64,000 bases of DNA from Dehalococcoidales bacterium (GTDB lineage Bacteria > Chloroflexota > Dehalococcoidia > Dehalococcoidales > UBA5627). Where the stretch lies: contig JAQTUQ010000003.1 of NCBI GenBank assembly GCA_028707255.1, positions 27,344 through 91,343 on the forward strand, read 5' to 3'. Numbering within the stretch: the stretch's first letter is position 1; each line of letters opens with the position of its first letter. Both the position numbers and the translations under genes were made by a program. Below are positions 47,102-61,452 of the stretch, one piece after another. The notes beneath the pieces are model-generated. The model did not search any database. It worked only from the letters and a program-made list of their open reading frames with translations, and had not been told where the DNA came from.

Positions 47102-47130
47102 TTGACGTCGTTGAAATATTATTGTAATAT
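47102..47130 (+). promoter_or_regulatory. Putative sigma-70 promoter of the hdr-mvh operon
   Basis: TTGACG (47102-47107), 17-nt spacer, TAATAT (47125-47130). Confidence 0.7.
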
Positions 47131-47269
47131 TCAGTGATATTTATACTCAATCAATATAATGCGAATATTTACCGAATAGTAAGAGTATTCATATTGATTT
47201 ACAGAACTGCAGATTTATTAAGTATTGTTTAAGGACGAAACCGGTTAATAAATTATGAGGGGGAGTTTC

Positions 47270-47830
47270 ATGGGAAAAACTCAGGCTATGAATTTTGTAA
47301 ACGAGGTTAGTCAGGTTCCCGGTGGTGAAGGAGTAAATCTATGTATGCAGTGCGGTACGTGTACTGCTTCATGCCCAAGCGCTAAGATATGGGAGTTTAC
47401 CCCTTCGGAGATAATTGCCATGGTAAGGGCAGACATGCGCGATGAAGTTCTGTCAAGCAGTTCAATGTGGTGTTGCCTTTCCTGTTATTCATGTACTGTT
47501 CGTTGCCCCAGGGATGTTAAGCCTACAAACCTGTTTCACTCTCTGGAATCTCTGGCGATTAAGCATGGGTATAAACCCCAAAATACCAATACTCCGGCCA
47601 TGTACAACAGCTTCGTAAAATCGATTAAAAAGAACGGTAGAGTGAGCGAATTCAACATGATGATGGGGTATTACCTGTCCACGAATCCCTTTGCGGCGTT
47701 GGGTATGATGTCGGTGGCATGGAACCTGTTGTCGCATGGGCGTATGCCGTTGTCGGCAAGGAAAATAAAGGGTAAAAATGACCTGGATAAAATAATTAAA
47801 AAACTTGAAGATATCAGAGGTGATCAATGA
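47270..47830 (+). CDS. hdrC: Heterodisulfide reductase subunit C-like (HdrC)
   Basis: CMQCGTCTASCPSAKIW and CCLSCYSCTVRCPRDVKPTNLF [4Fe-4S] motifs; ATG 47270 preceded by GGGGAG, track start 47255 less likely. Confidence 0.92.
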   Translation: MGKTQAMNFVNEVSQVPGGEGVNLCMQCGTCTASCPSAKIWEFTPSEIIAMVRADMRDEVLSSSSMWCCLSCYSCTVRCPRDVKPTNLFHSLESLAIKHGYKPQNTNTPAMYNSFVKSIKKNGRVSEFNMMMGYYLSTNPFAALGMMSVAWNLLSHGRMPLSARKIKGKNDLDKIIKKLEDIRGDQ

Positions 47831-48696
47831 AGAGCTATACGTATTACCCGGGCTGTTCATCGGAAGCTACCGCAGTAGGATTGGATATATCCGCACGGTC
47901 CGTAGCGGAAGCTCTGGGGATGGAATTAAAGGAACTTGAAGACTGGAATTGTTGCGGTTCGACTCCTTACGGTTCGTTGGATGAACTGGAAGCCATAGTA
48001 GTTGCAGCGCGGAATCTGGCTCTTGCGGAAAAAACCGGACTGGATCTTGTTACTCCGTGCAGTGCATGCTTTGTAACCTTGAATAAAGCCAGAGTTCATA
48101 TGATGGAGAAGCCGCAGTTAAAAGCTAAGGTTAACGAAGCTTTGGCGGCTGCAAATCTTGAATATAAAGGTACTGTGAAAGTCAGGTTGCTAATCGAAGC
48201 TTTAATGGCGGACATAACCACGCAACAAATAGCAGCTAAAGTTAAAAATCCGTTAAAAGGATTGAAAATTGCGCCTTATACAGGGTGTCAGGAAGTCCGT
48301 CCGAGGTTTGGATTCGACCATCCCGAAAATCCGGTTGCTCTAGATTCGATTGTCGAAGTGCTTGGTGCTGAAGTGGTGCCGTATCCGTCTAAATGTAAAT
48401 GCTGCGGTGGTTCGGCGGTAATAGCAGAGGAGGGTCTTACTCTGGAATTAATGTATAGATTGCTTGATGACGCTACTAAAAACGGAGCGCAATGTATCGT
48501 AACTCCGTGTCCGCTGTGCCAGATGAACCTGGATGCATATCAGGGGAAAGTAAACAGCAAGTTCAATGCAAAATTTAATTTACCGGTATTATTTGTTACC
48601 CAGCTTATCGGTGTTGCCCTCGGATTGAAGGGAGACAAATTGGGCTTGAATAAAAATATTATTAACCCAAATAAAGTCCTGGCGAAATATCTTTAA
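47827..48696 (+). CDS. hdrB: Heterodisulfide reductase subunit B-like (HdrB)
   Basis: Two CCG-type motifs: YYPGCSSEA..WNCCGS..CSACF and YTGCQEVRP..KCKCCGGSAV..CPLC; overlaps hdrC stop. Confidence 0.95.
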   Translation: MKSYTYYPGCSSEATAVGLDISARSVAEALGMELKELEDWNCCGSTPYGSLDELEAIVVAARNLALAEKTGLDLVTPCSACFVTLNKARVHMMEKPQLKAKVNEALAAANLEYKGTVKVRLLIEALMADITTQQIAAKVKNPLKGLKIAPYTGCQEVRPRFGFDHPENPVALDSIVEVLGAEVVPYPSKCKCCGGSAVIAEEGLTLELMYRLLDDATKNGAQCIVTPCPLCQMNLDAYQGKVNSKFNAKFNLPVLFVTQLIGVALGLKGDKLGLNKNIINPNKVLAKYL

Positions 48697-48710
48697 AGGA
48701 GAGCGTAACG

Positions 48711-51700
48711 ATGGAAGAAGTAAGAATCGGTGTATATGTATGTAATTGCGGCGCCAATATCGCCGGAACTGTTGATACCAAGCAAGTAACCGAATATGCA
48801 CAGGGCTTGGATTCGGTAGTTGTAGCGCGCAATTATAAATATATGTGTTCTGATCCTGGTCAGAACCTGATAAAAGACGATATAAAGGAAAAGAAACTCA
48901 ACAGGGTGGTGGTGGCTGCATGTTCTCCGAGGATGCATGAACCGACTTTCCGTCGAGCTGTGCAGGACGCAGGTATCAATCAATACTATTTCCAGATGGC
49001 AAATATACGCGAACAGTGTTCCTGGGTACACGAGAATAAGGAAATGGCTACCGAAAAAGCCAAAGCATTGGTGGAAGCCGCTGTGCGTCGTGTGAAATAT
49101 CATGAACCTCTGCAAACAAAGGAAGTTGCAGTTAATCCGAATGTAATGGTCGTTGGTGGTGGTATTGCCGGGATTCAGGCGGCTGTGGAGATTGCCGACG
49201 CCGGTAAAAAAGTATATCTGGTAGAAAAAGAACCCAGTATCGGCGGGCACATGGCGATGTTCGATAAGACATTTCCGACACTGGATTGCGCCGCCTGTAT
49301 TCTGACTCCGAAGATGACTACTGTTGGGCAACATCCGAATATCAATCTTTTAAGCTATAGCGAAGTTGAAGAAGTTTCCGGTTTTGTCGGAAATTTTAAG
49401 GCAAAAATTAAAAGAAAAGCGCGCTATGTAGATGAAAACAAGTGTACCAGTTGCGGCGAATGCATTAAAGTCTGTCCGGTACATGTAGATAATGAATTCG
49501 ATGTCGGTTTGAGCCAACGCAGCGCTACTTATATTCAATCTCCTTATGCCGTGCCCAATAAAGCTGTTATCGATAAAAAAGGGTATTCTCCATGTCGTGT
49601 AGCATGCCCTGCAGGGGTTAATGCCCACGGCTATATCGCATTGATATCGCAGGGTAAGTTTAAAGAATCGCTGGAATTGATCCGCGAATCGATTCCGCTG
49701 GCAGGGGTTGTCGGCAGGGTGTGTTATCATCCTTGCGAATTCGAGTGTGAGAGGGGAAGTGTTGATGAATCATTAATGATACGTAATCTAAAAAGATTTG
49801 TCGCTGATTATGAAATGAAAGTCGGCAGGGAAAAGGCAACCCCCATTGAGAAAATTTACAGTGACAGGATAGCAGTAATCGGTTCGGGTCCTTCTGGTAT
49901 TGCCTGCGCTTATGATCTGGCAAAGAAAGGCTATCCGGTAACCATATTCGAAGCATTGAATGAGCCCGGTGGATTAATGCGTTATGGTATTCCCGAATAT
50001 CGTCTGCCGAAAGCTGTTTTAGATAATGAGATAGCATATATTAAAGAGATAGGTATAGACATAAAAACAAATTCACCTGTAACAGATTTGGGCTCTTTGT
50101 TCAGGGAAGGATATAAGGCTATTTTCGTGGGGACCGGTGCAGGGAAAAGCCAGAAACCGAATATTCCCGGAGCGGAAAATCCGGGTGTCTTAACAGCCCT
50201 TGATTTTCTGAAGAGGGTTAAATCAGGAGAGAAGGTTTCGATAGGGAAAAATGTAGCTATTATAGGCGGTGGTAATGCAGCAATCGATGCCGCAAGGGTT
50301 GCGTGGAGACTCGGGGCTGAACAGGTGACCATTATATATCGTCGTTCCAAAGTAGAGATGCCGGCTGTAGCAAAAGAGGTTGAAGAGGGCGAAGCGGAAG
50401 GGATAAAGATTCAATTTCAGTCATCACCTACTAAAATAATAGTCAATGAAAACAAAGTAGTTGGTATCGAGTGTATTCACATGCATTTGGGAGAAGAGGA
50501 TGAAAGCGGCAGAAAAAGCCCGATACCCGAAAAGGGTTCGGAATTTGTTATAAATACAGATACAGTTATAGCTGCGATCGGACAGGCAATAGATAAGGCA
50601 GAGTTACCCAAGGAATTGGGGTTTTCGCCTTGGGGAAATTTATCGGTGGATCCTGTCACCCTAGAAACAAATATATCAGGAGTTTTTGCGGGGGGTGATG
50701 TTGTGGCTGGTCCTGAAGATGTAATTGCTGCTATCGCAGCTGGCAAAGAAGCCGCGGAAAGTATAGATAGATATATATGCGGTGATGATATGCGCGAAGG
50801 TAGGGATAAACAGATTAACCGGGTTAAAAATGTTAATAAGGATAAAATTATATTTAAACCTAGAGTTGAAATGCAGTCACTTGACTTAAGTAAAAGACAG
50901 GGCTCTTTTGACGAAGTAGATATTGGTTATGATGAAAATAGGGCAATTGAAGAAGCCAAGCGCTGCCTGAATTGTGCTGTTTGCTCTGAATGTATGTTAT
51001 GCGTAAAAGCCTGCGAACCCGATGCAATAAACCATAATATGCAGGAGCAGACACTTGAAGTTGAGGTTGGTTCAATTATTGTTGCCACCGGATTCCAGCA
51101 GTTCGATCCTGAGGTCATGTACACATATGGATATAACAGGTTTGATGATGTTTTAACAGGTCTTGAATTCGAAAGGCTTTCGAATGCATCAGGTCCTACG
51201 GATGGTGTTGTTATCAAGAAAAACGGAGAGAAACCGAAGAGTGTAGCTATATTACACTGTGTAGGAAGCCGTGATGAGAATTATCACAAGTATTGCTCGC
51301 GTGTATGCTGTATGTATTCATTGAAATATGCCCATCTCTTGAAGGAAAAATTGCCCGATGCCGATGTTTACCAGTTGTATATTGATATGCGCTGTCCGGG
51401 CTCCGGTTATGAAGAATTCTATCTGAGATTACAGGAAGAAGGAGTCAATTTCATAAGAGGCCGTGCGGCTGAGATAACCGATACTGCCGAAACACCCGAA
51501 GAAAAAGACAAGCTTGTCGTCTTGTGTGAGGATACTCTGGTACGCAAAAAGAGGCGATTGCCGGTAGACATGGTAATTTTAAGCTGTGCTATGGAACCGG
51601 GCGAAGGTTCGGCACAAATCGGCAAAGTACTGTCGATAAGTAAAAAAGCTGACGGGTTCTTCCTTGAAAAACATCCGAAACTGGATCCTGTTTCTACAAT

Positions 51701-52058
51701 GACCGATGGTATCTTTATAGTCGGTTGTTGCCAGGGGCCTAAGGATATCCCCGATACTGTTGCCCAAGCCTCTGCAGCTGCGGCAAGAGCACTGGCAATG
51801 ATTAGCAAAAACAAGGTGGAAATTGAGGCAGCTACATCGGAAATCATCGAGGAATTATGTTCCGGATGCAGGATTTGTAATGCCTTGTGTCCCTATAGCG
51901 CAATCACCTTTAACGAGCAGAAAGGTGTATCCGAAATTAACCAGGTTCTCTGTAAGGCATGCGGTGTTTGCGTATCCGCCTGTCCAAGCGATGCTATCAA
52001 GGGCAATCATTTTACTACGAAACAGCTTATGGCTGAAATTGAGGGGGTGTTAGCATGA
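48711..52058 (+). CDS. hdrA: HdrA-like protein with inserted GltD/NfnB-like NAD(P)-FAD oxidoreductase module
   Basis: HdrA N-term VYVCNCGANIAG..GGGIAGIQAAVEIADAGKKVYLVEKEPSIGGHMAMFDKTFPTLDCAACILTPKM; GltD-like VACPAGVNAHGYIALISQGKF..CYHPCEFECERGSVDE..IGSGPSGIACAYDLAKKGYPVTIFEA..GGGNAAIDAARVAWRLGA; C-terminal ferredoxin motifs. Confidence 0.93.
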   Translation: MEEVRIGVYVCNCGANIAGTVDTKQVTEYAQGLDSVVVARNYKYMCSDPGQNLIKDDIKEKKLNRVVVAACSPRMHEPTFRRAVQDAGINQYYFQMANIREQCSWVHENKEMATEKAKALVEAAVRRVKYHEPLQTKEVAVNPNVMVVGGGIAGIQAAVEIADAGKKVYLVEKEPSIGGHMAMFDKTFPTLDCAACILTPKMTTVGQHPNINLLSYSEVEEVSGFVGNFKAKIKRKARYVDENKCTSCGECIKVCPVHVDNEFDVGLSQRSATYIQSPYAVPNKAVIDKKGYSPCRVACPAGVNAHGYIALISQGKFKESLELIRESIPLAGVVGRVCYHPCEFECERGSVDESLMIRNLKRFVADYEMKVGREKATPIEKIYSDRIAVIGSGPSGIACAYDLAKKGYPVTIFEALNEPGGLMRYGIPEYRLPKAVLDNEIAYIKEIGIDIKTNSPVTDLGSLFREGYKAIFVGTGAGKSQKPNIPGAENPGVLTALDFLKRVKSGEKVSIGKNVAIIGGGNAAIDAARVAWRLGAEQVTIIYRRSKVEMPAVAKEVEEGEAEGIKIQFQSSPTKIIVNENKVVGIECIHMHLGEEDESGRKSPIPEKGSEFVINTDTVIAAIGQAIDKAELPKELGFSPWGNLSVDPVTLETNISGVFAGGDVVAGPEDVIAAIAAGKEAAESIDRYICGDDMREGRDKQINRVKNVNKDKIIFKPRVEMQSLDLSKRQGSFDEVDIGYDENRAIEEAKRCLNCAVCSECMLCVKACEPDAINHNMQEQTLEVEVGSIIVATGFQQFDPEVMYTYGYNRFDDVLTGLEFERLSNASGPTDGVVIKKNGEKPKSVAILHCVGSRDENYHKYCSRVCCMYSLKYAHLLKEKLPDADVYQLYIDMRCPGSGYEEFYLRLQEEGVNFIRGRAAEITDTAETPEEKDKLVVLCEDTLVRKKRRLPVDMVILSCAMEPGEGSAQIGKVLSISKKADGFFLEKHPKLDPVSTMTDGIFIVGCCQGPKDIPDTVAQASAAAARALAMISKNKVEIEAATSEIIEELCSGCRICNALCPYSAITFNEQKGVSEINQVLCKACGVCVSACPSDAIKGNHFTTKQLMAEIEGVLA

Positions 52059-52474
52059 GTTTTGAGCCTAAAATACTAGGTATCCTCTGCAACTGGTGCT
52101 CTTATTCGGGTGCAGATCTGGCAGGAACTTCGCGTAAGAAGTATCCGGCAAACATCAGGATAATGCGGGTGATGTGCAGCGGAAGGGTGGATCCTGTATT
52201 TATTCTAAAAGCCCTGGAATCGGGTGCCGATGGTGTTTTAATCCTGGGATGCCATCCTGGTGATTGCCATTATACATCGGGTAATTACAAAACCATGCGG
52301 CGCATGGAAATGTTAAAAAAATTAACGGAACAGATGGGAATCGACAGCGACAGGATTCGTCTCGACTGGGTAGCTGCATCGGAAGGCGACAGATTTGCGG
52401 AAATAATCAAGGATATGACGGAAAAAATTAAAAAATTGGGACCTTTCCCCAGAAATGGAGGAGATAATGGCTAA
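52055..52474 (+). CDS. mvhD: MvhD-type hydrogenase iron-sulfur (delta) subunit
   Basis: GILCNWCSYSGADLAGTSRKKYPANIRIMRVMCSGRVDPVFILKALESGADGVLILGCHPGDCHYTSGN. Confidence 0.96.
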   Translation: MSFEPKILGILCNWCSYSGADLAGTSRKKYPANIRIMRVMCSGRVDPVFILKALESGADGVLILGCHPGDCHYTSGNYKTMRRMEMLKKLTEQMGIDSDRIRLDWVAASEGDRFAEIIKDMTEKIKKLGPFPRNGGDNG

Positions 52475-53423
52475 ACCAAAAGTTGCACTCTACTGGGCTG
52501 CCAGTTGCGGTGGTTGCGATATCGCACTTCTGGAAATAGGTGAAAATCTTTTAAAGCTTATCGATGCGGTAGATATAGTATTCTGGCCGGTTGCCATGGA
52601 TGTCAAATACAAGGATGTAGAAGCTATGGAGGACCAGAGCATCGATGTTTGTATTTTCAACGGTTCCATTCGCAGTTCAGAACAGGAGCATATCGCAAAA
52701 CTACTGAGAGCGAAATGCAAGGTTATGATTGCCTACGGAGCCTGCGCCTATCAGGGAGGAATCCCGGGACTGGCCAATATGTATAACCGGGAAATGATAA
52801 TGGAGAGGGCATATCTTGAGACGCCTTCTACGGAAAATCCGGATAAAGTTCTTCCCCAGACCAGCTATCAGGCTCCGGAGGGAGAGCTTACATTACCAAA
52901 ACTATTTGATACCGTCAAAACGCTGGCGCAGACAGTGAAAGTTGAGTATATAATTCCCGGATGCCCGCCGGAAGCGCAAACGACGTGGATGGCGCTGGAA
53001 GCATTGATAACCGGTCAAATGCCCCCTGTTGGAACTGTAATAACAGATAATGCGAAAGCTGTTTGCGATGAGTGTCCGCGAAAACGTGATGTGAAGAAAG
53101 TTAAAAAATTTCACAGAACCTATGAAATCATCAGTGACCCCGAGATATGCCTTTTGGAACAGGGTCTTCCGTGTGCCGGCATTGCTACAAAGGGCGGTTG
53201 CGGTGCCAGATGCCCTATAGCTGGTATGCCATGTACCGGCTGTTATGGCCCGGTAGAAGGCGTAATTGATCAGGGTGCGCACTTTATGAATGCGATTGCT
53301 TCAGTAATCGATTCAAACGATCCTGATGAAATAGAAAAAATTATCGAAGATATCAGAGACCCTGCGGGTACATTCTACCGTTACAGTCTACCTGATTCCA
53401 TATTAAGGAGGGCCAGAGTTTAA
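52467..53423 (+). CDS. mvhG: [NiFe]-hydrogenase small subunit, MvhG type (group 3c-like)
   Basis: YWAASCGGCDIALLEIGENLLKL; AYGACAYQGGIPGLAN; IPGCPPEAQTTW; ATG 52467 behind GGAGGAGATA, track start 52455 less likely. Confidence 0.93.
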   Translation: MAKPKVALYWAASCGGCDIALLEIGENLLKLIDAVDIVFWPVAMDVKYKDVEAMEDQSIDVCIFNGSIRSSEQEHIAKLLRAKCKVMIAYGACAYQGGIPGLANMYNREMIMERAYLETPSTENPDKVLPQTSYQAPEGELTLPKLFDTVKTLAQTVKVEYIIPGCPPEAQTTWMALEALITGQMPPVGTVITDNAKAVCDECPRKRDVKKVKKFHRTYEIISDPEICLLEQGLPCAGIATKGGCGARCPIAGMPCTGCYGPVEGVIDQGAHFMNAIASVIDSNDPDEIEKIIEDIRDPAGTFYRYSLPDSILRRARV

Positions 53424-54880
53424 TGAGAAAGATAAGTATAGACCCGATTACCAGGCTTGAAGGCCACGGTAAAATAGAGATATTCCTTAACGACGAAGGA
53501 AGGGTAGAGAACAGTTATTTTCAGGTACCGGAACTGCGTGGCTTTGAAAAGTTTTCGGAAGGAAGATTAGCTGAGGATATGCCTCAGATTACCCAGAGGA
53601 TTTGCGGCGTATGCCCGGAGGCGCATCATTTGGCATCAGCAAAAACACTCGATGCTTTATTTCATGTAACTCCGACAAGTACTGCCAGAAAATTACGCGA
53701 ACTTTTATACAATGCCTTTTATGTTACCGACCATACCACACATTTTTATATTCTGGGCGGTCCGGATTTCGTTATGGGGCCGGAAGCCCCGGTTGCAGAG
53801 CGTAATATTATCGGTGTTATCGGAAAAGTCGGCCTTGAATTGGGTGGGGCGGTTATCAATACCCGTAAAAAATGCCATCATATAATCGGCTTGCTTGGCG
53901 GCAAAGCAGTTCATCCGGTTTTCGGATTGCCGGGTGGGGTAAGCAGGGGAATCAATCAAGAAGAGCGGCAGGAAATAGAAAGCATCGCCAGGGATTGTAT
54001 TGAATTTTCCAAGTTGTCATTAAAGGTTTTTAACGATATTGTTCTTGCCAATAAAGAATATGTGGATATGATCGTCAGTGATGCTTATACCCATAAGACA
54101 TATTCTATGGGTCTGGTCGATGAAAATAACAAGGTTAATTACTACGACGGAAAGATAAGAGTTGTCGACCCTGATGGAAATGAGTTTGCCAAATTCGAAC
54201 CTAAAGATTATCTCGAACATATTGCAGAGCACGTGGAACCGTGGAGTTATATCAAGTTCCCATATCTGAAAAAGGTAGGATGGAAAGGCTTCGCGGATGG
54301 CAAAGACAGCGGCGTTTTCCGTGTTGCTCCTATGGCTCGGCTTAATGCATCGGATGGCATGGCGACTCCCCTGGCACAGGAAGAGTACGAGAGATTGTAT
54401 TCGACACTCGGTGGTAAACCGGTGCATCATACTCTGGCGATTCATTGGGCAAGGCTGGTTGAAATGGTACAGGCTGCGGAGACACTGCTTGCCTTGAGTA
54501 CCGACCCGGAAATTACCAGTGACGATTTAAGAAACATTCCTACCGCGACTCCTGATGAAGGCGTAGGCATTGTTGAAGCGCCGAGGGGTACTTTAATTCA
54601 TCATTATCAAACTGACGAGAAGGGTATAATAAAGAAAGCCAATTTGATTGTAGCCACCGTAAATAACGGGGCTGCCGTAAATATGTCTATTAATAAAGCG
54701 GCTCGGGCTCTTATACAACCGGATAAAGAGATAACGGAAGGATTGTTGAATCGTATAGAAATGGCATGGCGTCCCTATGATTTATGTCTGGCTTGCGCCA
54801 GCCACAATTTACCCGGGCATCCGGCAATGCCAATGTACGTTTATGATAAAAATAAACAAATAATAAAAAGCTGGGAATAG
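53423..54880 (+). CDS. mvhA: [NiFe]-hydrogenase large subunit, MvhA type (group 3c-like)
   Basis: ITQRICGVCPEAHHLASAKTLD (L1) and RPYDLCLACASHNLPGHP (L2) Ni ligand motifs. Confidence 0.95.
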   Translation: MRKISIDPITRLEGHGKIEIFLNDEGRVENSYFQVPELRGFEKFSEGRLAEDMPQITQRICGVCPEAHHLASAKTLDALFHVTPTSTARKLRELLYNAFYVTDHTTHFYILGGPDFVMGPEAPVAERNIIGVIGKVGLELGGAVINTRKKCHHIIGLLGGKAVHPVFGLPGGVSRGINQEERQEIESIARDCIEFSKLSLKVFNDIVLANKEYVDMIVSDAYTHKTYSMGLVDENNKVNYYDGKIRVVDPDGNEFAKFEPKDYLEHIAEHVEPWSYIKFPYLKKVGWKGFADGKDSGVFRVAPMARLNASDGMATPLAQEEYERLYSTLGGKPVHHTLAIHWARLVEMVQAAETLLALSTDPEITSDDLRNIPTATPDEGVGIVEAPRGTLIHHYQTDEKGIIKKANLIVATVNNGAAVNMSINKAARALIQPDKEITEGLLNRIEMAWRPYDLCLACASHNLPGHPAMPMYVYDKNKQIIKSWE

Positions 54881-54893
54881 AATACATAATACT

Positions 54894-55385
54894 TTGAAGA
54901 CATTAGTATTAGGATTGGGTAACCCTTATATCTGCGACGACAGTGCTGGATTGAAAGTAATTAAGTTGCTGGAAAAGAGGTTATCCAATCCTGATGTTAC
55001 CTTAAATGAAACCAGTTTGGCCGGTATCAATTTACTTGATTATCTGGTAGGTTATGATAAAGCCATCATAGTAGACGCCATTCAATCCCCGAATGGCAAG
55101 CCGGGTAGTATTTATAGGTTAACTCCTGAGGAATTCGATACCACTTGCCATACTACCTCAAGCCATGACATAGGTGTTATCGCTGCAATAGAGTTGGGAA
55201 AGAGATTGGAATTATCGATGCCAAAGATAATAGAGATAGTCGGTATTGAAGCGGGTGATGTCAGCACGCTGACAGAGGAATGTACTCCTGATGTTGATGC
55301 CGCAATCCCCATAGCAGTAGATATGATAGTTAAAGAAGTTCAAGTAACTCATGTCCGAAGATGTTTTTTGAGTTTTTTAGATTGA
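54894..55385 (+). CDS. Hydrogenase maturation protease (HycI/HyaD family)
   Basis: LVLGLGNPYICDDSAGLKVIKLL; AIIVDAIQSPNGKPGSIYRL; TTSSHDIGV; TTG start, directly downstream of mvhA. Confidence 0.93.
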   Translation: MKTLVLGLGNPYICDDSAGLKVIKLLEKRLSNPDVTLNETSLAGINLLDYLVGYDKAIIVDAIQSPNGKPGSIYRLTPEEFDTTCHTTSSHDIGVIAAIELGKRLELSMPKIIEIVGIEAGDVSTLTEECTPDVDAAIPIAVDMIVKEVQVTHVRRCFLSFLD

Positions 55386-55452: not shown

Positions 55453-56544
55453 ATGTCCATGTTAGAACAAAAACAATATCCTCAGATGCGCCAGGAAGTG
55501 AGACAATTCCTCAGGATTGAACAGGCAGACCTGCTGGAAATGCCTCTGAGCGAACTCAATTCTATAATAAACGAAATCGAACATAATCAGGTATTCCAAA
55601 AGTTATATAAAAAAGAAAAAATAATTCGCTATAAAAGACAGAATAAAACTGAAATATCCAGGAATTATTTAGAATTAAAAGAAGAGGTAATAGCTGACAA
55701 CAATTCTCCTGACGTAGAAGCGCTTTTGACAAATAAAAACAGGATTATTGAATACATCAGGGAAATAGGACAGGAGAAGTTTAAAAAATACTTTCTTTTC
55801 CCGGAAGAAGGTTTCTCTGATGCTGAACTTGCGGAGAAATGTGATCTTGAAATATCACAGGTGAAAGAGATCAATGCCCTGGTTGATGATATTGCAATAC
55901 TGGATGAGTTTTATAATCCGTCGGTTATGAATACTAACAATATAAATTATTATAAAATTGCCTCTATTGAACGAGATAAAACAGGTTTTACTATATGCTA
56001 TCTTTCGAGTGCGTTAAATAAGGGCTGCTATGAAATAGACTATGAAAAATTTGAGATTATAACCAGTGCCAATAATCTCAGTGATATTGAAGTTAAAGAG
56101 GCAAAAAATATATTTCATAAACTCGAAATTATCAATAAATGTAAAGAAACATTACATCGGATATTAATTTATATTATTGAAATACAGGGGACTTATCTGG
56201 ATTCGGGAGATGACAGACTTATTCGACCGTTGAGTCAAAAAGAGCTGGCTATCAATATAGGTGTTACTCCCAGCGCGGTATGCCGGGCGATCAAGTGCCG
56301 GACTATAGTTACACCGCAGGGTAAAGAGGTCATCTTGAAGGACTTATTCCCGGGACCAAAAAAATTTAAAATTACAATTCTAAAAAAAATTATTGAAACC
56401 GAAGCCGGACTATTGTCTGATGCGCAAATAAAGAAGATTCTTCAGGAACAGTATGGAATTAATATTTCCAGGCGTTCGGTTACGAATTTAAGAAATATTA
56501 TTAAAGTTCCGCCTAAGAATAAGTGCAGGTCAGTTAGGAGATAG
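55453..56544 (+). CDS. rpoN: Divergent RNA polymerase sigma-54 factor
   Basis: LSQKELAINIGVTPSAVCRAIKCRTIVTPQGKEVILKDLFP DNA-binding region; RpoN-box-like SRRSVTNLRN (56467-56496); N-term QEVRQFLRIEQADLLEMPLSELNSIINEIEHNQVF. Confidence 0.8.
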   Translation: MSMLEQKQYPQMRQEVRQFLRIEQADLLEMPLSELNSIINEIEHNQVFQKLYKKEKIIRYKRQNKTEISRNYLELKEEVIADNNSPDVEALLTNKNRIIEYIREIGQEKFKKYFLFPEEGFSDAELAEKCDLEISQVKEINALVDDIAILDEFYNPSVMNTNNINYYKIASIERDKTGFTICYLSSALNKGCYEIDYEKFEIITSANNLSDIEVKEAKNIFHKLEIINKCKETLHRILIYIIEIQGTYLDSGDDRLIRPLSQKELAINIGVTPSAVCRAIKCRTIVTPQGKEVILKDLFPGPKKFKITILKKIIETEAGLLSDAQIKKILQEQYGINISRRSVTNLRNIIKVPPKNKCRSVRR

Positions 56545-56548
56545 GTAG

Positions 56549-58495
56549 ATGAGTATTATCTTTACAGAAAAAGACAAATGCAAAGGCTGCTATGCCTGTA
56601 TTCGTTTCTGTCCTGTTAAAGCTATAAAAGTTGAAGATGGATTAGCGCAGGTTATGAAAGATAGATGCATAGTCTGTGGCAATTGCCTTAAAGTTTGTGT
56701 TACGAACGCAAAACGTACGGAAAGCGATGTGAGTTTAGTCTGGCAGTTGTTGGGGATGAATAAAAATGTCATAGCTGTGATGTCGTCATCTTTTCCGGCG
56801 GCTTTGCCTGCGATTGTTCCGGGGAATCTGATTTCTGCTTTAAAGAAATTAGGTTTTAGTGAGGTAATGGAAGATTCATTTGGTGCTGAACTTATCGGTA
56901 AAGAATATGCACGTCAGTTTAATGAGCCATCTAATAAAACTATACTTACTTCTAACTGTCCCGCTGTAGTGAGCTATATCGAGAAATACTATCCCAAATT
57001 AATTAATAACCTTGCTCATATTGTATCTCCGATGGTTGCAACGGGAAGATTGATAAAGAAATATTTCGACCCTGATGCTAAAATAGTATTTATCGGACCA
57101 TGCGTAGCAAAAAAAGCTGAAGCGAGGGATGAGGGTTGTATTGGAGCTATCGATGCAGTGCTGACTTTTGCCGATTTGAAAGAGATGTTTGCGGCTAAAG
57201 GTATTAATCCAGAAACTCAAGGCGAATCCGGATTTTTTGGGCCACATCCTGATTTAGGAAGATTGGTATCTATATCAGGGGGGCTATTAAAAATATCCGG
57301 ACTCTCGGATGACATACAAAAGAATGATATTATCAGTGCTCATGGCAGAGAATATGTAGCAAAGATCTTGAAAGAATATTCCATGGGAGAAATAGATGCC
57401 AAGATGATAAATCTATATTTCTGCCATGGTTGTATAGATGGGCCGGTGATTGATAATGATTTGAGTGTATTCAGGCGAAAAGAACTAATAGTTAAATACA
57501 CTGAAAATATGAGTGATCCTCAACAAACCGAAAAGGATATCCAGGAGTTCGGAAATATTAATCTGAGCCGCTTATTTAATCCACAAAATGTGAGTTTATC
57601 CAGTCCCGATGACGAAGCCATAGATGATATTTTAGAAACTATGAATAGACTCAGGCCTGAAAATCAGTTTAATTGCGGAGCTTGCGGTTATAACTCCTGT
57701 CGAGAACTTGCTATAGCTGTGTGTCAGGGATTGGCTGAGATAGAAATGTGCTGGCCTTATTTACATAATCATCTTCAGGAAACGCAGGAAGAGTTGATAC
57801 AAGCTGAAAAACTGACATCATTAGGGCAGCTAGCAGCTTCTGTTGCACACGAAATAAATAATCCATTATCAGGTGTTCTGGTATATACTCAATTGATAGC
57901 TAAGAGATTAAAAAATGACCAATTTTCCAAAGATACTACCCTGGATTACCTAAATAAAATGGAGACAGAGCTTCATCGCAGCACAAAACTGGTCAGAAGC
58001 CTTCTGGATTTCTCAAGACAATCAGTTCCGAAATTTGCAGAAGTAAATATTAATGATATAGTTGAGCGGAGTTATGATCTTGGTATACATTCTACTGAAC
58101 TGCAGTTTATAAAAATAAATAAAGAAATGTCTTCGGATTTACCTGTAATTATAGCTGATGCTGACCAGATTCAGCAGGTTTGCACCAACCTTATTATCAA
58201 TGCGATACATGCAATGCCGGATGGAGGAGAATTAACTCTCAGGACATTAACCGATGGAATATATGTAAAAATTGAGGTTATTGATACAGGGGTGGGTATA
58301 AAATCGGAAAATATGCGGAAATTATTTACCCCATTTTTTACTACGAAAAAGGATAATAAAGGTGTGGGTTTAGGATTAGCTATATCCTATGGTATCGTGC
58401 AGCGGCATCATGGGAAAATCGATGTAAAATCAGTAGAAGGACATGGCGCTAAATTTACAATATGTTTACCGGTGAAATATGCAGAAGACAACTAA
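56549..58495 (+). CDS. Sensor histidine kinase with ferredoxin + [FeFe]-hydrogenase-like (H-cluster) domain + 4Fe-4S domain
   Basis: 2x[4Fe-4S]; TSNCPAVVSYIEKYYP, GPCVAKKAEA, FCHGCIDGP (H-cluster-like Cys motifs); NCGACGYNSCRELA; VAHEINNPLSGVLVYTQL HisKA; GVGLGLAISYGIVQRHHG HATPase. Confidence 0.92.
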   Translation: MSIIFTEKDKCKGCYACIRFCPVKAIKVEDGLAQVMKDRCIVCGNCLKVCVTNAKRTESDVSLVWQLLGMNKNVIAVMSSSFPAALPAIVPGNLISALKKLGFSEVMEDSFGAELIGKEYARQFNEPSNKTILTSNCPAVVSYIEKYYPKLINNLAHIVSPMVATGRLIKKYFDPDAKIVFIGPCVAKKAEARDEGCIGAIDAVLTFADLKEMFAAKGINPETQGESGFFGPHPDLGRLVSISGGLLKISGLSDDIQKNDIISAHGREYVAKILKEYSMGEIDAKMINLYFCHGCIDGPVIDNDLSVFRRKELIVKYTENMSDPQQTEKDIQEFGNINLSRLFNPQNVSLSSPDDEAIDDILETMNRLRPENQFNCGACGYNSCRELAIAVCQGLAEIEMCWPYLHNHLQETQEELIQAEKLTSLGQLAASVAHEINNPLSGVLVYTQLIAKRLKNDQFSKDTTLDYLNKMETELHRSTKLVRSLLDFSRQSVPKFAEVNINDIVERSYDLGIHSTELQFIKINKEMSSDLPVIIADADQIQQVCTNLIINAIHAMPDGGELTLRTLTDGIYVKIEVIDTGVGIKSENMRKLFTPFFTTKKDNKGVGLGLAISYGIVQRHHGKIDVKSVEGHGAKFTICLPVKYAEDN

Positions 58496-59837
58496 AATCG
58501 TAATAGTCGATGATGAAGAAATAATACGTAATTCCTTTTCCGATTGGCTTAGGGATCTTGGTTATCGTGTATTTGAAGCAGGGACAGGAATCGAATCATT
58601 AAAGATAATAAAGGATGAAAAACCGAATATTGCTATCGTAGATCTTATTATGCCGGGAATGGATGGCGTCGAAGTATTAAAAAGAGCCAAGGAAATATAT
58701 CCTGGTATCGAAGTAATAATTATGACGGCTTACGGAAGTATTCCAACAGCAGTAAACGCCGTAAGGGCAGGAGCATGCGACTTTATTGAGAAACCTTTCT
58801 GCCCCGAAAAGGTGGAAATTTTAATAGAGAAGATAATAGAGCATAAGAAGGTAGTGGAGGAAAATATTTTACTTCGTCAGAAATTGGATGAACGATGTAA
58901 TTTTGAGAATATTATCTATAAAAGCGCCAAAATGCAGAGAGTTGTCGAATTAGTCAGAGCTGTATCTAAAAGTAATGCTAATGTACTGATAACCGGAGAA
59001 AGCGGTACGGGAAAAGAGTTGATAGCAAGGGCAGTACATAACTACAGCCATCGCCAGAATAAACCATTTGTGGCTATAAGTTGTGCTGCTCTGCCCGAGA
59101 CTATTCTTGAGAGTGAATTGTTCGGACATGAGAAAGGTTCTTTTACAGGTGCGCATATTCAGAGAAAAGGAAAATTTGAGATTGCCGATAACGGTACCCT
59201 GTTTATGGATGAAATCGGTGATATGAGCATTAATATCCAAGTTTATCTTTTGAGGGTTTTGGAGGAACAAGAATTCACGCGTGTCGGCGGAAATGACCTG
59301 GTTAAAGTAGATGTGAGGATAATTTCGGCAACAAATAAGGATCTGAAGGAATCTATAGCTAAAGGAAAATTTCGTGAAGATCTTTATTATCGCCTAAATG
59401 TAGTAAATATTGAATTGCCCGCACTGCGGCAAAGAACGGAAGACATTCCTTTACTTGCTGGATATTTCTTAAAAAAGTTTGCTGCCGAAAACAAGAAGGA
59501 AGTAAGTGGCTTTGCTCCTAAAGTTATGGATTTTCTGTTGAAATATGAATGGCCTGGAAATGTCAGAGAATTAGAAAATGCGATAGAAAGAGCGGTTGTA
59601 CTGGCCAGGAATAATGTTATTAATACAGATGATTTACCTCAGCAAACACTGCGATCAACCGATTTGATTACATCAAAGGAAAGCATAAAAGATGTTGAAA
59701 AGAAACACATTATAAATGTATTGAAAGAATCAGGCTGTAATTATAGTAAAGCTGCCGCTATTCTTGGGATTTCCAGGGTTACTTTATATAATAAAATTAA
59801 AGTTTATGAAATAGACGTAAATAAAGCCGCTAATTAA
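58479..59837 (+). CDS. NtrC-family sigma-54-dependent response regulator
   Basis: REC; GESGTGKELIARAVH Walker A; GHEKGSFTGAHIQRKGKFE (GAFTGA-type loop); C-terminal Fis-like HTH YSKAAAILGISRVTLYNKI. Confidence 0.97.
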   Translation: MQKTTKIVIVDDEEIIRNSFSDWLRDLGYRVFEAGTGIESLKIIKDEKPNIAIVDLIMPGMDGVEVLKRAKEIYPGIEVIIMTAYGSIPTAVNAVRAGACDFIEKPFCPEKVEILIEKIIEHKKVVEENILLRQKLDERCNFENIIYKSAKMQRVVELVRAVSKSNANVLITGESGTGKELIARAVHNYSHRQNKPFVAISCAALPETILESELFGHEKGSFTGAHIQRKGKFEIADNGTLFMDEIGDMSINIQVYLLRVLEEQEFTRVGGNDLVKVDVRIISATNKDLKESIAKGKFREDLYYRLNVVNIELPALRQRTEDIPLLAGYFLKKFAAENKKEVSGFAPKVMDFLLKYEWPGNVRELENAIERAVVLARNNVINTDDLPQQTLRSTDLITSKESIKDVEKKHIINVLKESGCNYSKAAAILGISRVTLYNKIKVYEIDVNKAAN

Positions 59838-59941
59838 TTATCTTCCGCGTTGAACTAACTCTAATACTTACTTGCTATTATTAGTAATTATGCTGCTATT
59901 CGGTTATGGTGGCCTTTGCCCTTGGTTTGGATTACCAATGA

Positions 59942-60217
59942 TTAGAGTTTTATGGTTATTTCAGCATACTCCTTCGGGGTAAAACCTTTCCATGAGCTAT
60001 TAGGTCTGACCATAATGTATTATCCTCGCCATTCTCTAATAACGCTCCGGGCATGATATATGTAGATAAATCGGTTCGTGTTCAGGCATTCATCTCGAAA
60101 TCTTTTATTCAAGCTTTCAGCACAAGCATTCTCTATCGGTTTCCCGGGACGGATGAAATTGAGTTTTATGCCTTTACGGTCCTTCCCAGTCGCTATTCTA
60201 CACATTTTTATGCTCAT
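59942..60217 (-). mobile_element. IS3-type transposase OrfB C-terminal remnant (degenerate)
   Basis: GKPIENACAESLNKRFRDECLN..ARSVIREWRG*YIMVRPNSSWKGFTPKEYAEITIKL*: integrase-core tail with an in-frame stop and no 5' part. Confidence 0.82.
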
Positions 60218-60377
60218 CTGTTAATGGGGAGCAGTATATTACTTTATTCTTTTCTATTTTCTCTTTATAAAACAGCTTCGATAAAGGACAAAATAAGCAA
60301 TATGAATCTTCGTAACATTAACAGCGATGAAAAAACTCAAGGATAATTATTTTAGCTCATATTTATTATTTTTATTA

Positions 60378-60394
60378 TTGGCAAGAAAATTGCG
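60378..60394 (+). promoter_or_regulatory. Predicted sigma-54 (-24/-12) promoter
   Basis: TTGGCAAGAAAATTGCG: GG (60380-60381) and GC (60392-60393) separated by exactly 10 nt; 43 bp upstream of the ATG at 60436. Confidence 0.8.
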
Positions 60395-60435
60395 TTAATA
60401 TAAAGTTAGAACGAAAAATAAAAGGAGAACAAATA

Positions 60436-61452
60436 ATGAAACCGATATTAATAGTAGATGATGAAATTTCTATCCGGGAAGCCTTGAAAGATTGGTTAAC
60501 AGATAATGGTTATGATGTTAAAACAGCAGAAAGTGGAGAAGACGCTTTAGAGGCTATAGAAGAGCAGGATTTTGGTATGGCTATTCTCGATTTAAAGCTG
60601 CCCGGTAAAAATGGGTTAGAGGTATTTAAGGAAGCACGTACCAAACATCCACGACTTAATGGTATTTTTATCACAGCTTATCCCTCGATAGATACAGCTG
60701 TCGAAGCTATGAAAGACGGAGCAGTCGATTATTTAACCAAACCACTCGATCTAAATGAATTAGAAAAGCTGATACGTGAAAAACTAGGGCCGATGCAGAT
60801 AGAAGTACGTAAGCAAGAAGCGAAAGTAGAAACAGTAATTGAAACTAAGGAGGATACCACTCCGGCAATCGAAGAGAATATAGCAATTGCTCCTGAGGAT
60901 ATACCCGAGCATATTAGACTGGGGCAGGTGTATTACGATAATGCGAAATATAACGACGCTATTAAAGAGTTCAGTTCAGTTATCGCAGTATCTCCTGAGA
61001 ATATAGATGCCAGAATCGGCCTGAGGAAAGCTCAAGAATCTAATTATAATGAATCGATTGGTGGTGTGGCTCAACTGAAGACAGGGGGTAAAATAACAGA
61101 ATGCATATGGATGAAGATGGGGATGGTGGATTTCCGTATATGTACCAGTGAGCATAATTGTACTAGTTGCCAGTTCGATCAGGAAATGCAGCAAAAGATG
61201 GCAGGCGGGGAATCTGTCGAACTTGATAATACCATGGAGAAATTAAAGGAGCTTCCTGGTACACGAAGATCTTGTCGCTATGCCATAAAAGGAGATGTAT
61301 CGAGCAGAATTTGCAGCCGCCTATTCCAATGTAAGGTATGTGAATTTAATCAGGGAATGGAAGATGCCTTACGACAAAAACTGCAAAAACTTGCTGCTCG
61401 TCGTGAAGCACTTGCCAGAAGGGAAGAAAAAAATAATACTCAAACCAACTAA
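60436..61452 (+). CDS. Response regulator with REC, TPR-like segment and C-terminal Cys-rich domain
   Basis: ILIVDDEISIREALKDWL..LDLKLPGKNG..YLTKPLD; LGQVYYDNAKYNDAIKEFSSVIAVSPENIDARIGL; CTSEHNCTSCQFDQEM and CSRLFQCKVCEFNQGMEDALRQKL. Confidence 0.88.
   Translation: MKPILIVDDEISIREALKDWLTDNGYDVKTAESGEDALEAIEEQDFGMAILDLKLPGKNGLEVFKEARTKHPRLNGIFITAYPSIDTAVEAMKDGAVDYLTKPLDLNELEKLIREKLGPMQIEVRKQEAKVETVIETKEDTTPAIEENIAIAPEDIPEHIRLGQVYYDNAKYNDAIKEFSSVIAVSPENIDARIGLRKAQESNYNESIGGVAQLKTGGKITECIWMKMGMVDFRICTSEHNCTSCQFDQEMQQKMAGGESVELDNTMEKLKELPGTRRSCRYAIKGDVSSRICSRLFQCKVCEFNQGMEDALRQKLQKLAARREALARREEKNNTQTN

Follow-up and report, generated by a model that had tools for sequence, protein, structure and literature searches.

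The window, i.e., the whole 64,000-nucleotide stretch of DNA analyzed here, comes from a Dehalococcoidales genome of 1.64 Mb (69 contigs, 98% complete). It codes for an Hdr/hydrogenase operon, followed on the same strand by a divergent sigma-54 factor (hereinafter mini-sigma-54), a histidine kinase, an NtrC-family regulator and a protein that we term RTC (REC-TPR-Cys), with a predicted -24/-12 promoter in front of the last (Table 1). The Hdr/hydrogenase operon is probably co-transcribed with the sigma-54 gene. Upstream of hdrC, we found nothing resembling a sigma-54 site, and the sequence TTGACG-N17-TAATAT at 47102-47130 is compatible with a sigma-70-like promoter for the operon. In its HdrA (48711-52058, 1115 aa), a GltD-like NAD(P)H oxidoreductase domain is inserted at residues about 290-790. 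RTC stands alone in the window, with the following genes on the opposite strand.

Table 1. Features of the cassette and its surroundings (positions within the window).
Feature	Position	Strand	Remark
hdrC-hdrB-hdrA-mvhD-[NiFe] hydrogenase small/large-maturation protease operon	47255..55385	+	67-nt gap to sigma-54 gene
Mini-sigma-54, divergent, 363 aa, RpoN box SRRSVTNLRN	55453..56544	+	only Sigma54_DBD gene found in genome
Histidine kinase: 2x[4Fe-4S] + [FeFe]-hydrogenase-like + Cx2Cx4Cx16C, fused to HisKA/HATPase	56549..58495	+	
NtrC-family response regulator: REC, AAA+ with GSFTGA, Fis-type HTH	58479..59837	+	
Location equivalent to the relatives' tandem dyads (22 bp apart), degenerate	59816..59860	+	
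Intergenic stretch with decayed IS3-type transposase C-terminus (rve_3, minus strand)	59838..60377		separates activator gene and promoter
-24/-12 sigma-54 promoter TTGGCAAGAAAATTGCG (predicted)	60378..60394	+	sequence, conservation, genome uniqueness
RTC: phosphorylatable receiver, TPR-like repeat, two C-x12-C-x5-C-x2-C motifs	60436..61452	+	

The element TTGGCAAGAAAATTGCG reads exactly as the first-pass annotation had it, with GG at 60380-60381 and GC at 60392-60393. The 10 nt between these dinucleotides and their TGGCA/TTGC context are those of sigma-54-dependent promoters, and the genome codes for both a sigma-54 and an AAA+ activator. The site lies 541 bp from the activator stop (59837), in agreement with the roughly 540 bp given earlier, whereas its distance to the ATG at 60436, given as 43, is 41 nt when counted between the last base of the site and the ATG. 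With GC taken as -12, the predicted +1 is G60405, which falls within the interval of 60404-60406 that had been proposed for the start; the corresponding G is kept in 20 of the 25 aligned loci.

The bare pattern TGGCN7TTGC is matched four times in the window, where 2.0 matches are expected. It is thus too ordinary for the site to be judged on the consensus alone, an approach that we dropped, and the case rests on comparison across genomes. The site at 60378-60394 is the sole exact match to TTGGCANNANAATTGC in the genome. Near-matches to this motif with 0-2 mismatches are not enriched genome-wide (63 versus 75 in the reversed control), while the looser TGGCAN6TTGC occurs 22 times against 10 in the reversed control. 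Further genomic targets were considered and rejected on the ground that the motif-specific near-matches are unenriched and that the strict matches elsewhere lie inside ORFs. In simulated sequence, sites scoring 20 bits or more arise at about 0.1 per Mb per strand; the leave-one-out scores of the 25 training sites range from 18.2 to 29.3. The strict pattern was matched in 16 of 101 genomes of the order, compared to two for the reversed control. Outside ORFs, it was matched only in genomes with the cassette (11 of 13), the other examined matches being inside ORFs. What had been picked out by eye as the only clear sigma-54 promoter is apparently the sole one in the genome.

Comparison across the class showed this element to be strongly conserved. 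The order sigma-54-like gene, histidine kinase, NtrC-type regulator and then RTC recurs in numerous genomes, both within the order and elsewhere in the class, and the 30 cassettes with the first three genes span at least 11 Dehalococcoidia families. In every cassette with a sequenced interval from the activator gene to the gene after it, that interval contains the site (30/30). The 25 training sites were drawn from 13 genomes and 12 further loci from named MAGs, the named relatives being mostly Dehalococcoidales and Dehalococcoidia MAGs; a contig search with an alignment recovered 21 loci, and one with a single protein none. In the 13 genomes, the site is kept though the rest of the stretch differs. 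All 25 loci share the second T, the GG, the A at position 10 and TTGC without variation, the C after GG and the A-tract neighbors being nearly invariant. The site is also present, without exception, in five cassettes that came to light once the matrix had been built, and its distance to the ATG differs among relatives while the site itself remains constant. Second copies are present in the same intergenic stretch in three cases (G054, L161 and L253), with L161 having yet another site within the downstream operon. The earlier proposal of a sigma-54 promoter that is a direct target of the cassette is strongly supported by its retention at 30 loci, co-occurrence with mini-sigma-54 and uniqueness in the genome. 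Many relatives also show a strong terminator-like hairpin upstream of the promoter, its T-run leading into TTTTGGCA, such that the activator transcript would stop just ahead of the promoter.

The mini-sigma-54 of the window matches Sigma54_DBD with 64.6 bits (Pfam cut-off 22.8), the only one of the sigma-54-family Pfam domains that it matches. Its alignment to solved sigma-54 chains begins at about residue 160, and the significant PDB fold matches of its model, which is of low confidence (mean pLDDT 67), are all sigma-54. Domain and fold thus both place it in the sigma-54 family. The core-binding domain (PF04963) is not matched by Pfam in the window protein, and the AID (PF00309) matches 5 of 11 mini-sigma-54 members, with a best E of 0.72. 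The RpoN box retains the RR but otherwise departs from ARRTVAKYRE, for which reason we term the protein a divergent form rather than a standard RpoN. Among canonical Chloroflexota sigma-54 proteins, 25 of 30 copies read ARRTVAKYR, with the other five missed by the box pattern used. With its divergent box and no detectable Pfam AID or CBD, the protein might have an altered or lost activity. Sigma-54 was found in 130 of 400 Chloroflexota genomes; within Dehalococcoidia, the genomes listed are only that of the window and two others (G261 and G476), both with the same cassette. As the window genome is 98% complete and in 69 contigs, a second sigma-54 could be missing from it. Two loci (L074:1056-2417 and L088:105-1379) code for proteins with a Sigma-54 DNA-binding domain, a region-I-like N-terminus and, by eye, a GIY-YIG-nuclease-like C-terminal part. 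The nuclease resemblance has no Pfam confirmation; in G063, such a gene neighbors the cassette and is divergent from it.

The kinase bears its Fe-S/[FeFe]-hydrogenase-like module at the N-terminus, fused directly to HisKA/HATPase. In nearly all aligned members, the last H-cluster motif (L3) is CxxC (FCHGC), not CxxxC, and no match to the maturase HydF over the cut-off was found in 16 genomes; the kinase thus differs from the sensory [FeFe] hydrogenases (HydS) on both counts. With no HydF match and a CxxC motif, redox sensing through Fe-S clusters is a likelier function of the domain than H2 splitting. The same two features weaken the possibility that the kinase senses H2 through an H-cluster. 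In G063, G037 and L169 (also L074 and L075), the kinase part follows not this module but another N-terminus, one that in L169:8428-9669 resembles a membrane-type domain, suggesting that the input is exchangeable while the promoter stays. The regulator has the receiver, AAA+ and Fis-type HTH architecture of NtrC-type activators, with the GAFTGA-type loop reading GSFTGA. It is the only full-length sigma-54-activator domain in the genome, the three other matches being weak and partial.

Relatives show TGT-N11-ACA in the 3'-terminal part of the activator gene in 16 of 24 loci (1.0 expected) and, about 22 bp further, TGA-N11-ACA, which starts with the stop codon, in 14 of 24 (1.7 expected), though these counts overstate independence because conserved codons overlap the first dyad and the TGA comes free. 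Most other dyad spacings are rare in relatives, and the downstream ACA half of the dyad falls outside the activator gene. Such tandem dyads at the stop codon are probably the sites of the activator; in most relatives they form pairs upstream of the promoter, an arrangement typical of sites bound by NtrC-type activators. They are present in 19 of the 24 relatives and degenerate in the window, with neither TGT-N11-ACA nor TGA-N11-ACA recognizable in 59700-60440; they are likewise absent from three species of the same genus (G001, G002 and G005). In 60220-60370, the interval suggested earlier for an enhancer search, nothing matches the relatives' dyads, which sit at the activator stop codon. Of all sites in the window, TGTAAAGATAATACTCA at 56550-56566 on the minus strand (16.8 bits) comes closest to the relatives' dyad; it lies where the sigma-54 gene meets the kinase gene. 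The 540-nt intergenic stretch of the window contains the rve_3 relic (E 1.8e-14), of which no copies were found elsewhere in the genome; the gap between activator and RTC is only about 100-310 nt in the relatives among the 13 genomes. The -24/-12 element itself reads as intact here although the dyads are degenerate. With the latter degenerate in this genome, activation may be weak, use another site or be decaying.

The receiver of RTC has D9, E10, D52, T80 and K102 in place, and all eight cysteines of its two motifs are invariant in 15 orthologues; the Cys region is modeled with pLDDT <50. In relatives, the same promoter heads redox-enzyme operons: RTC plus HdrBC-HdrA at three loci (L164, L167 and L169), NuoE/NuoF-like genes plus a receiver-ferredoxin fusion at L157, and, within the same genus (L083), a TPR-Cys protein, a receiver-diaphorase fusion and an [NiFe] hydrogenase. 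The RTC circuit therefore likely has a role in redox or hydrogen metabolism. Receivers fused to metabolic subunits are coded at L161:10061-12307, L157:17110-18111, L083:13742-16084, L229:3413-5635 and L230:5523-7742, in the form of REC-GltD/HdrA-like, REC-ferredoxin (NuoG-like) and REC-diaphorase fusions. They mostly share about 60-68% identity with the RTC receiver (L083 only 29%). With RTC-related receivers fused to metabolic subunits, one kinase could both induce genes and tune enzymes. The window genome additionally codes, on another contig (L227:5106-7538, contig C48), for an 810-aa protein combining a receiver with an acetyl-CoA-synthetase-like AMP-binding enzyme.

With its sequence, uniqueness, conservation and gene neighborhood observed as above, along with a single sigma-54 and a single activator, we consider it highly probable that 60378-60394 is the sigma-54 promoter of a private circuit of one sigma-54, one activator and one promoter. 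In the circuit that we infer, the Fe-S histidine kinase would phosphorylate the neighboring NtrC-type regulator, which in its phosphorylated form would activate the promoter. The latter would be recognized by the mini-sigma-54, whose gene lies about 4 kb upstream. Transcription would begin near G60405 and yield a short mRNA for RTC, making the circuit a closed unit beside the Hdr/Mvh-hydrogenase operon. RTC would then most likely act as an induced redox-responsive receiver, feeding back on the same signaling path or on the nearby Hdr/hydrogenase enzymes; this is the least certain step.

A wider regulon is conceivable, in which mini-sigma-54 would also read promoters of a different consensus elsewhere in the genome. 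The second sites in G054, L161 and L253, including the one inside the downstream operon of L161, lend this some weight, but the unenriched near-matches, the placement of strict matches elsewhere inside ORFs and the single activator make such a wider regulon rather unlikely. It is also improbable, albeit conceivable from the degenerate dyads and the decayed rve_3 relic between activator and promoter, that the promoter is real in relatives and inactive here, with the relic having broken the activator sites and the circuit decaying in this species. Against this, the -24/-12 element and the sigma-54 frame are intact, as are the activator and, in RTC, the receiver residues and the eight cysteines, and sigma-54 activators are able to act from afar or from solution.

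Alternatively, the 17-mer could be read as a sigma-70 promoter with TTGGCA as the -35 and TATAAA or TAAAGT as the -10. In the window, TTGGCA-N17-TAAAGT does score 9/12, with TATAAA at 15 nt; however, -10 matches of at least 4/6 are found in only 5 of 25 loci with a spacer of 17 and 7 of 25 with a spacer of 15, while GG and GC are invariant, and the region has nine sigma-70-like sites against 7.5 expected, leaving this reading very improbable. We attach still less credence to the element being conserved for another role, in an mRNA leader or as an operator bound by some unknown regulator: a ATAGGGTGGAGG-like stretch around the predicted start is partly conserved as well, but the consensus and spacing of the element are those of sigma-54 promoters, it tracks the sigma-54 gene, and no Rfam family matches it as an RNA element.

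Returning to the private sigma-54 circuit, the element is a sigma-54 promoter in kind, and it is the circuit around it that is unusual. As a rule, sigma-54 works with several activators and a large number of promoters. In this case, the sequences point to a single sigma-54, a single activator and a single promoter that have been carried together through at least 11 families, with sigma-54 otherwise not found in the class samples. We tentatively propose, at somewhat less than even confidence, a fuller picture in which a self-contained sigma-54 circuit serves a single promoter in the nearly sigma-54-devoid Dehalococcoidia, the promoter heads redox operons with receiver-fused subunits, and one kinase could switch genes and tune enzymes. 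As a gene-control circuit, it would be unusually small. Associated with hydrogen and electron-transfer enzymes, it would connect an Fe-S sensor with how Hdr/Mvh-type electron bifurcation is regulated in Dehalococcoidia, and it offers a minimal natural system in which divergent sigma-54 promoter recognition is testable with a single known target. Among open papers, we found no description of the cassette or circuit.

The element compares closely with the canonical RpoN promoter consensus TGGCAC-N5-7-TTGCT (PMC12316311) and its Clostridiales counterpart TTGGCAT-N5-TTGCT (PMC6615313), sharing the GG/GC spacing, the TTGGCA and TTGC core and, in relatives, probable upstream activator dyads. Unlike canonical RpoN promoters, it conserves AAGAAAA between the boxes and is apparently present once per genome, and the cognate sigma-54 is shortened, with a box of the form SRRSVxNLR instead of ARRTVAKYRE. 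In having a sigma-54 devoted to a single activator and few targets, the system recalls RpoN3 of Cereibacter sphaeroides, whose RpoN paralogues have cognate activators, e.g., RpoN3-AprX-xrpA (PMC11999139). There, however, it is one of four paralogues, whereas the genome studied here has a sole sigma-54, cassette-linked with kinase, activator and target.

On the input side, Clostridiales sigma-54 activators carry Fer4/Fe_hyd_lg_C/FeS sensory domains (PMC6615313). They share with our system the control of sigma-54 transcription by an [FeFe]-hydrogenase-like Fe-S module, which here is on a separate histidine kinase signaling through a two-component activator. The kinase resembles the putative sensory group C/D [FeFe] hydrogenases, HydS, with their C-terminal Cx2Cx4Cx16C motif (PMC8163306), in this motif, in its two N-terminal [4Fe-4S] motifs and in an H-domain lacking the proton-path Cys; it departs from them in its HisKA/HATPase fusion, besides the L3 CxxC and the lack of HydF noted above. 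On the output side, Caulobacter FixT, a receiver that binds Fe-S and exerts feedback on FixL (PMC7078487), is the nearest described parallel for the presumed action of RTC. Both have a receiver with a 4-Cys motif and a gene induced by its own two-component system (predicted for RTC). RTC differs in its TPR-like part and in having two 4-Cys motifs outside the receiver, and feedback on its part would be an analogy with FixT.
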